DNA of 64,000 nucleotides from Nitrososphaerota archaeon (GTDB lineage Archaea; Thermoproteota; Nitrososphaeria; Nitrososphaerales; Nitrosopumilaceae): NCBI GenBank assembly GCA_028866655.1, contig JAGWHQ010000005.1:1-64000 (forward strand), written 5' to 3'. Positions 9,842-14,283 of this stretch are shown piece after piece (the stretch's first letter is position 1; each line of letters begins with the position of its first letter). A model generated the notes under the pieces. That model worked only from the letters and a program-made list of their open reading frames with translations. It was not told where the DNA came from and made no database searches. The position numbers and the translations under genes were made by a program.

Positions 9842-10507
9842 TTAGATTTTGATATTTGGATTTTCTTTTTTGAGTTTTTCCCAGTCTGCAAGAAAGTTTT
9901 TGAGACCAATATCTGTTAAAGGATGTTTTAACATTTTTCCAAGTATATCAGGCGGTAATGTTACCACATCTGCTCCAATTTTTGCAGCTTCTACTACATG
10001 CATAGGATGTCTTACACTTGCAACAAGAATTTGTGTACTAAATTTGTAATTGTCAAAGACTTGGCGTATCTCTTTGATAAGGTTCATGCCATCTTGTCCG
10101 TTATCATCAAGTCTTCCGATAAATGGACTTACATATTTTGCACCGGCTTTTGCTGCCAATATTGCCTGATTTACAGAAAAACAAAGTGTGACATTTACTG
10201 GAATATTCTCAGATGTCAATATCTTACAAGCCTTTAGACCATCAGGGGTTAGAGGACATTTTACTATCACATTGTTACCATATTTTCTAAGTCTCCTACC
10301 TTCCTCTAACATTCCATTGGTCTCTAAGCTTAGTACCTCCAAGCTAACATCACCTTTGATAATTCGAACAATTTCCTCCATAACTTTTTGAGGATCGCCT
10401 CCCTCCTTTGCCATCAGAGACGGATTTGTAGTGATTCCATCTACAAGACCCATATCGTTGTACATCTTTATTGCTGAAATATTAGCAGTATCCAGAAATA
10501 TCTTCAT
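9842..10507 (-). CDS. tal: Transaldolase / fructose-6-phosphate aldolase-like
   Basis: MKIFLDTANISAIKMYNDMGLVDGITTNPSLMAKEG...NVTLCFSVNQAILAAKAGA. Confidence 0.95.
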   Translation of the reverse strand: MKIFLDTANISAIKMYNDMGLVDGITTNPSLMAKEGGDPQKVMEEIVRIIKGDVSLEVLSLETNGMLEEGRRLRKYGNNVIVKCPLTPDGLKACKILTSENIPVNVTLCFSVNQAILAAKAGAKYVSPFIGRLDDNGQDGMNLIKEIRQVFDNYKFSTQILVASVRHPMHVVEAAKIGADVVTLPPDILGKMLKHPLTDIGLKNFLADWEKLKKENPNIKI

Positions 10508-11472
10508 CTGGTTTGACTCCGAATAGACTTAACGGCATTAGATATATGAATTGATGTAATGCCATGTTTTTCAAGTAAGAGAGGAATCTCACCATCCCTT
10601 GCAGATTCTCCAAACTGATCCTTTGCCCCTATACGTTTTACAAGAACAGGATATGTTTCAGAGACTGTTTCTGCAACTGCAGAACCAAATCCTGCCAATA
10701 CATTATGTTCTTCACATGTTACTATTCCTCCAGTCTCACGTGCTGCCTTTTCTAAAATTTCAGAGTCAAGTGGTTTGATGGAAAACATATCAATGACTCT
10801 ACATGAAATTCCTTCTTGTTTCAAAGAGTCTGCAGCTTCAAGAGCAATACTAACAGTTATTCCACATGCAACAATAGTACAATCAGATCCATCTCGCAGA
10901 ACAATTCCTTTACCCATCTGAAAGTCTTGTTCTTTTGAATGAATTACAGGTGTTTTTGATCTTGCCAATCTCATGTAACACGGACCATAAACTTGTGCAA
11001 AAAGTCGAGTGAGTTTTTCTACAGCTATAGTATCAGCTGGAACAAAGACCTTGAGATTTGGAATGACTCTCATTATTGCAATGTCTTCAATCTGTTGATG
11101 AGAACCGCCATCAGGACCAACACTGAGACCTCCATGGGATACAACCATTTTTACATTTAGTCCATTTTTTCCATTTCTTGAAGGATATGCTATTGCATTG
11201 CGTATCTGGTCAACACATCGACCAGGAAGAAATGCGGCATAAGTACTTGCAAATGGAATTTTACCTTCATTTGCAAGACCTGCAGCCATAGTAACCAAGT
11301 TAGCTTCAGCAATACCAACATTGAAAAATCTATTTGGAAATTTTTTTCCAAATGGTTTTGTCTTTAACGAATCAGTAGTGTCTGCTCCAACTACTACGAT
11401 GTCAGGATTTTCCTCGCCTAGCTTGAGGAGTGTTTCACCATAAACAGTTCTCATATCAGCAAATTCTGTCAT
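10504..11472 (-). CDS. Transketolase C-terminal subunit
   Basis: Pyr-domain pattern DADTTDSLKTKPFGKKFPNRFFNVGIAEANLVTMAAGLA region; ATGA overlap with neighbours. Confidence 0.93.
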   Translation of the reverse strand: MTEFADMRTVYGETLLKLGEENPDIVVVGADTTDSLKTKPFGKKFPNRFFNVGIAEANLVTMAAGLANEGKIPFASTYAAFLPGRCVDQIRNAIAYPSRNGKNGLNVKMVVSHGGLSVGPDGGSHQQIEDIAIMRVIPNLKVFVPADTIAVEKLTRLFAQVYGPCYMRLARSKTPVIHSKEQDFQMGKGIVLRDGSDCTIVACGITVSIALEAADSLKQEGISCRVIDMFSIKPLDSEILEKAARETGGIVTCEEHNVLAGFGSAVAETVSETYPVLVKRIGAKDQFGESARDGEIPLLLEKHGITSIHISNAVKSIRSQTR

Positions 11473-13142
11473 GCAAAACCTGCCTCCTGAGCTATCTGTA
11501 AAAGTTCAGTCTTCTTTTTACCTACCTCATGTAGATCTATCCATTTTTTTACAAGATCACTGCCTCCAAGGCTGTGAGCTTTGTTAATCAAGAGTTTTCT
11601 TCTTGCATGCATTAGCTTCTTTCTAAATTCAATAATTGTAGCTCGAACATCTTTTTGTCCTATTATTGCACTTCCACCTACGAATACCCTAGCGCCATCC
11701 AAGAAACATGATTCTACATTTGTCAAATCCACTCCTCCATCTGCCTCAATCAGACCCTCAAATTTTCGTTCAGACAGGAATTTGGCTATTCTCTGTGTCT
11801 TCTCATGTGTAGATTCAATATATTTTTGGCCTGATTTTCCTGGGATCACTGACATTATTATTAGCTGATCCAAATCTTGAATGAATTTCTCAGACCATTG
11901 AGGCAGTTCAGTATCAGGATTGATTGCAAGTCCTACACTTACAGAATTTGAGCGCAGGATATCATAAATTTCCCCAAAACTTGATTCGTCACAGACTTCA
12001 GCATGTACTGTAATTATGTCAGACCCTGCATCGACATAGTTCTTCACATGTTTTACAGGTTCTGTGATCATAAGATGAGTATCAAAAGGAATTGGAGTGA
12101 TTGGTCTCAGTTGTTTTATTTTTTCATGATCAAATGTCGTATTTGGTACAAAGACACCATCCATCACATCGAGATGAATAAAATCTGCTCTTGCAAGAGA
12201 TGCTCTCTTGACTTCGTTTTCTAAATTCATCATGTCTCCTGCAATTATGGATGGAGATATCAAAAATTGGCAATCTAATTCTAGATCAATTATTGGAGAC
12301 ATCAGGGGATTTGGTGCAACTCCATGCCATTTGGGATTATCTTCCATGTGTTCTACAGATTTGCCTTTGATGGTACGAGATATGATAATTGTTGGAGCTC
12401 CCTTTGTTTGCAATGCAGAATTTACTGCCTTGGAGATTTGTTCTATACGATGGCCATCTATTTCCAAGACATTCCATCCAAAAGATCTCCATTTATCTCC
12501 CACCTTCCATCTTGCAGCATTTTTCCACATCTCAGAAATATCATCACTGACAAGTTCCTCATCTAGAGGCATTACTCTTTCTGTATAGTCATCTTGTTGA
12601 ATGAAGTTCCTATCCAAGAAAACTGTCAGATTATCCACTTTGTATTTAGGTGCAGTCATGGCAGCCTCCCAAACTTGTCCTTCATCAGATTCACCATCAC
12701 CGATTACTGTGTAGATATGATGATTTTTTCCATCAATTCTTGCAGCAAGAGCCATTCCAATAGAAAATGATAATCCCAATCCAAGCGATCCGCCACAAAA
12801 CTCAACTCCAGGACACTTAAAGTCAGGATGACCTTGTAATTTGCTTCCAAATTTTCTCAGAGTCTCCATTTCCGATTTAGCAAAAAATCCAGCTACTGCA
12901 AGATTAGAAAACAAGCCAGGTGAGGCATGACCTTTTGATAACACAAGTCTATCTCGGTCTTCCCAAAGAGGATTTTGTGAGTCATAGTGTAAGAATTTGA
13001 AATACATGCACCCCAGGATCTCTGCCATGGAGAATGATCCTCCAGGATGACCTGAGCCAGCAGTAGTAATTCCTTTAATCACAAGTTTCCTAGCTTCTTT
13101 TACTTTTTTGAAAATATGATAATAATTTAGAGCCATGTCCAT
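11469..13142 (-). CDS. Fusion: transketolase N-terminal subunit + ribulose-5-phosphate 3-epimerase
   Basis: Single 557-aa ORF: TPP domain (GHPGGSFSMAEIL, GDGESDEGQVWEA, KWHGVAPN), then Rpe (ISPSIIAGD...ADFIHLDVMDGVFVPN...MSVIPGKSGQKYI...EADGGVDLTN), then a ~45-aa tail. Confidence 0.93.
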   Translation of the reverse strand: MDMALNYYHIFKKVKEARKLVIKGITTAGSGHPGGSFSMAEILGCMYFKFLHYDSQNPLWEDRDRLVLSKGHASPGLFSNLAVAGFFAKSEMETLRKFGSKLQGHPDFKCPGVEFCGGSLGLGLSFSIGMALAARIDGKNHHIYTVIGDGESDEGQVWEAAMTAPKYKVDNLTVFLDRNFIQQDDYTERVMPLDEELVSDDISEMWKNAARWKVGDKWRSFGWNVLEIDGHRIEQISKAVNSALQTKGAPTIIISRTIKGKSVEHMEDNPKWHGVAPNPLMSPIIDLELDCQFLISPSIIAGDMMNLENEVKRASLARADFIHLDVMDGVFVPNTTFDHEKIKQLRPITPIPFDTHLMITEPVKHVKNYVDAGSDIITVHAEVCDESSFGEIYDILRSNSVSVGLAINPDTELPQWSEKFIQDLDQLIIMSVIPGKSGQKYIESTHEKTQRIAKFLSERKFEGLIEADGGVDLTNVESCFLDGARVFVGGSAIIGQKDVRATIIEFRKKLMHARRKLLINKAHSLGGSDLVKKWIDLHEVGKKKTELLQIAQEAGFA

Positions 13143-14092: not shown

Positions 14093-14097
14093 TAAAA

Positions 14098-14214
14098 GGC
14101 GCCAGCACTACTGCTTCCCAAGGGCTCTCGCACCTTAGTAACACAGTAGCGACATTGGGTTTGACTTCCGGGTTCGGTATGGGACCGGGTCGGACCCCAA
14201 CGCTGTGGCCGGCT
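14098..14214 (-). rRNA. rrf: 5S ribosomal RNA
   Basis: Reverse complement contains CCCGGTCCCATACCGAACCCGGAAGTCAAACCC with matching terminal stem (GCCGGCCAC.../...GTGCTGGCGCC). Confidence 0.95.
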
Positions 14215-14283
14215 TAGTTTCTTTGGCTTCTAATGTTATGTATTAATCTTGCTTGATAGAGATATAAATTAAGAAAAGCGGAA

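Follow-up and report, generated by a model that had tools for sequence, protein, structure and literature searches.

The window, i.e. the whole stretch of 64,000 nucleotides that was analysed, carries on its minus strand a gene in which the N subunit of a split transketolase (TktN) is joined in frame to ribulose-phosphate 3-epimerase (Rpe), followed by the genes of the transketolase C subunit (TktC) and a transaldolase (Tal) (Table 1). The fusion gene reads from 13142 to 11469 and contains zero internal stops over 557 aa. ATGA overlaps are present at both junctions, at 11469-11472 between the fusion gene and tktC and at 10504-10507 between tktC and tal, in agreement with the coupling to tktC and tal that had been proposed in the preliminary description. 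The domain content proposed there, namely TktN plus a complete Rpe, was also recovered, as the Pfam search matched both domains strongly. Upstream of the operon lies a 5S rRNA gene (Rfam RF00001, 76.8 bits).

Table 1. Features of the tktN-rpe locus (positions refer to the window, except where a related locus is named)
Feature	Position	Strand	Remarks
tal, TalC/MipB-type transaldolase, 221 aa	9842..10507	-	start overlaps tktC stop (ATGA)
tktC, split-transketolase C subunit, 322 aa	10504..11472	-	Transket_pyr + Transketolase_C; start overlaps fusion stop (ATGA)
tktN-rpe fusion gene	11469..13142	-	557 aa; ORF + Pfam
Conserved C-terminal tail, residues 513-557	11472..11606	-	end of predicted long helix 499-536 + helix 541-553
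Ribul_P_3_epim (ribulose-phosphate 3-epimerase) domain, residues 295-494	11661..12260	-	Pfam 6e-53, fold
Transketolase_N (TPP-binding) domain, residues 13-276	12315..13106	-	Pfam, 8e-45
18-aa TktN insertion, residues ~196-213	12504-12557	-	next to TPP/metal loop
5S rRNA gene	14097-14216	-	Rfam
PfkB-like sugar kinase-like gene, ~345 aa	L099:2826-3872, L100:673-1719, L098:3474-4505, L132:872-1951		unfused lineages

The identical fused ORF layout recurs at 62-97% identity in over 50 relatives of other assemblies, single-contig genomes included, and the fusion is thus neither a chance event nor an assembly artefact. The uninterrupted ORF described earlier is open in dozens of genomes, and in none of these is the frame broken by the frameshift or stop between the domains that had been considered at the outset. 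In Nitrosotalea sp. TS (L090:4001-5672, on what is apparently contig G017:C11) several frameshifts or stops break up the fusion gene, and their scattered placement points to sequencing indels more than to a pseudogene. The nearest relatives of the fused protein belong to Candidatus Nitrosotalea (up to 96% identity), and judged by them the host is a Candidatus Nitrosotalea. No relative was encoded on the viral contigs searched.

The fusion is confirmed here yet already known, since 73 of 98 Thaumarchaeota assemblies have been reported to carry the Tkt N-terminus fused to Rpe (cluster 341.1; PMC11237513, mSystems 2024), which that paper took to indicate that the non-oxidative pathway is complete. 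The window protein is of this published kind, being a transketolase N-terminal half in frame with Rpe in Thaumarchaeota, with domain order and lineage identical to those of cluster 341.1. In the main text of PMC11237513 no discussion was found of the catalytic residues, of how the operon was ordered ancestrally, or of the tail and the TktC insertion; relative to that main text, what our analysis adds is the TktC insertion, the tail and its confinement to fused proteins, and the descent of the fusion from an operon. Another paper describes the non-oxidative pathway as conserved and says no more on the subject. The bifunctional Hps-Phi enzyme of other archaea is likewise a fusion of consecutive pentose-phosphate enzymes (PMC11237513), but it involves other enzymes and an alternative route to ribose.

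Regarding the transketolase half, the TktN part of the fused protein consists of Transketolase_N without the Pyr and C domains and keeps the TPP/metal residues, while the TktC partner encoded nearby carries the TPP-activating Glu (E56). The best PDB matches of TktN and TktC are the N and C chains, respectively, of the Carboxydothermus split transketolase (3.5e-72 and 1.3e-96). This enzyme of Carboxydothermus hydrogenoformans (6yak, 6yaj) is composed of two chains, like TktN and TktC of the window, and is an active alpha2beta2 transketolase that binds TPP between the N and C chains (PMC7661550). The residues named in that study have their counterparts in K70, H72, D149, E151, N179 and probably K259 of TktN, as well as in E56 and F81 of TktC. 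Unlike the window protein, the Carboxydothermus N chain has no Rpe attached, its contact residue Ile182 is aligned with Gln in the window TktN, and the two chains lack three insertions seen here. The 18-aa TktN insertion, modelled with low confidence by AF2 without TktC, and a 6-aa TktC insertion are found in Nitrosopumilaceae only, while a 3-aa TktC insertion (in FGESARDxEI) is limited to fused lineages. Two genomes of the genus, G018 and G032, additionally possess a split transketolase pair that is more distant (TktN ~41-43% identity) and has no Rpe (L110:2287-4031 and L111:4425-6145), the pair at L111 adjoining genes that resemble NDP-sugar enzymes.

In the epimerase half, the PF00834 match covers positions 2-198 of the 198-position profile, i.e. 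a full-length Rpe barrel. Its fold agrees with solved Rpe structures at a TM-score of ~0.87-0.94, normalised by target length, and in comparison with known Rpe (TIGR01163; PDB 2fli, 1rpx, 3ovr) the whole barrel is alike, at ~30-37% identity to the structures that match best, with the metal-binding and catalytic residues in common. Known Rpe is normally a free enzyme, whereas that of the window has TktN at its N-terminus and a 45-aa helical tail. It could be argued that the domain serves mostly a structural or regulatory role and is not an active epimerase, given that it scores below the TIGR01163 equivalog cut-off (187.6 vs 212.6 bits). However, the metal ligands and acid/base residues H323, D325, H356 and D468, together with M327 and M358, do not vary across 43 aligned relatives or across a set of 22 sequences drawn from the two fused families, so that the loss of catalytic residues contemplated in the preliminary description was seen in none of the relatives checked. 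The NF004076 Rpe subfamily cut-off is moreover exceeded (191.4 vs 165), and the genome offers no other rpe. An inactive Rpe domain is, in our opinion, scarcely credible.

As to gene copy number, the PF00834 profile search found no second rpe in the host genome, which is 94.6% complete. The sole other match, a weak one on contig C22, was rejected as a candidate, as it corresponds to TrpA beside TrpB; the standalone rpe for which the preliminary description had suggested looking was thus not found. PF00456 matched the fusion gene alone in this genome, with no other Transketolase_N protein, and standalone rpe was also absent from single-contig relatives of families f1 and f8, among the matches listed. 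RpiA is encoded on another contig of the host and, with Tal and TktC present beside the fusion, the non-oxidative pentose phosphate pathway is complete. An apparent loss of rpe only in three other genomes (G010, G162 and G170) was dismissed; tktC is absent as well, and the pattern is better explained by an assembly gap or by the cluster having been lost as a whole.

In silico analysis of Rpe matches in 200 genomes of the order revealed that in f1 (Nitrosopumilaceae) and in f8, probably Nitrososphaeraceae, Rpe lies within open frames of 545-612 aa in all matches listed. In contrast, f2 (probably Nitrosocaldaceae), f3, f9, f10 and f14 have a free rpe of about 220-295 aa, and the remaining families gave weak Rpe matches or none, among the matches listed. 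A phylum-wide sample, which did not include f8, yielded no fusion outside f1. The fusion is genuine and intact, and almost all ammonia-oxidising archaea have it.

The unfused families are also informative about its origin. Families f2, f3, f9 and f10 have the genes arranged as tktN-rpe-tktC, with tal behind them wherever it is visible in the sequence, and in view of this order a single joining of the neighbouring tktN and rpe genes is the most likely origin of the fusion. The event would have taken place in the common ancestor of the two families, within an already coupled tktN-rpe-tktC-tal operon. In the TktN tree one branch separates all fused rows (support 100/99), while in the Rpe tree, which has long branches, the fused set forms one clade in just 38% of bootstrap trees. 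Unfused lineages usually have a PfkB-like sugar kinase-like gene directly upstream of tktN (Table 1), and this gene is not at the corresponding place in the window. In f2, tktN and rpe already overlap by ATGA, so that one small frame change would be enough to join them. The fusion may then have been neutral, two overlapping ancestral genes having merged and been retained merely as harmless, all the more as the operons of f2, f3, f9 and f10 already co-produce both enzymes. Nevertheless, no re-splitting is found in f1 and f8 among the matches listed, and a conserved tail is specific to the fused form; we consider neutral retention rather unlikely.

This tail of ~45 aa beyond the normal Rpe, noticed in the preliminary description, proved to be real and conserved in relatives. 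All fused proteins share a related extension with a conserved Trp, whereas the free Rpe of f2, f3, f9 and f10 either finish with the last helix or shortly beyond it, or run out into low-complexity sequence that is unrelated. The AF2 model of the fused protein (mean pLDDT 77.7, pTM 0.75) was run without TktC on an alignment of 43 sequences from the window and related loci, and for this reason the deeper diversity of f8 is missing from it. In this model the last Rpe helix spans residues 499-536 and is followed by a second helix at 541-553 (pLDDT block means 77-94), while confidence is low in the active-site loops (residues 99-108 and 179-212). The tail is thus predicted to form, with the last Rpe helix that it lengthens, a helical hairpin specific to fused proteins. 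Pfam gave no match for it at E values up to 10, its PDB matches were non-significant (a truncated haemoglobin, E about 0.5), and the host genome has no second copy of it. Against the close relatives L042, L046 and L049, dN/dS is 0.035-0.065 for the two domains and 0.07-0.11 for the tail, more distant pairs being near saturation; purifying selection is strong on both domains and on the tail alike. The helical tail would have emerged together with the fusion and is retained by selection, and its role is probably that of an assembly or docking element.

Taken as a whole, the reading of TktN plus a complete Rpe, forming a TktC-paired transketolase of the non-oxidative pathway, with a single origin by joining within an operon and a selected tail, is in our view very probable. 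It builds on the observed domain integrity, catalytic residues, operon, distribution, tail and selection. As regards quaternary structure, the fused N subunit would pair with TktC from the neighbouring gene into an alpha2beta2-like transketolase, with the TPP active sites formed at the interface of TktN and TktC, and therefore the epimerase would be physically tethered to each active site. A bifunctional N subunit delivering one Rpe per transketolase active site is the best supported interpretation. Together with the coupled transaldolase and the RpiA encoded elsewhere, the fusion would supply the non-oxidative pentose phosphate pathway. The flux in these CO2-fixing ammonia oxidisers would be directed from fructose-6-phosphate and glyceraldehyde-3-phosphate to ribose-5-phosphate; in this ribose-making direction transketolase would yield xylulose-5-phosphate, which the tethered Rpe would convert to ribulose-5-phosphate.

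The tethering might bring a kinetic benefit. Substrate channelling, put forward as an inference in the preliminary description, is possible, and stoichiometric tethering is the safer reading. The fusion and TktC, perhaps with Tal, might form a metabolon that hands xylulose and ribulose 5-phosphate between active sites, with the tail docking the partners: the reactions are consecutive, the fusion and tail are retained in both families under purifying selection, and the 3-aa TktC insertion is restricted to the fused clade. However, the tail and the TktC insertions each go back to one clade, so that their co-occurrence does not constitute independent evidence of interaction. Moreover, Rpe is usually fast and near equilibrium. 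We thus regard such a metabolon as improbable, and a fixed multi-enzyme particle, perhaps including Tal, in which the tail docks with the TktC insertion of the fused clade and pentose phosphates are passed on, as distinctly improbable.

Ammonia-oxidising archaea rank with the most abundant microbes of oceans and soils, and they probably rely on the non-oxidative pathway for ribose. The fusion is a clean marker of two of their families and provides a natural test case of whether tethering Rpe to transketolase raises flux, with the conserved tail as a specific target for study.
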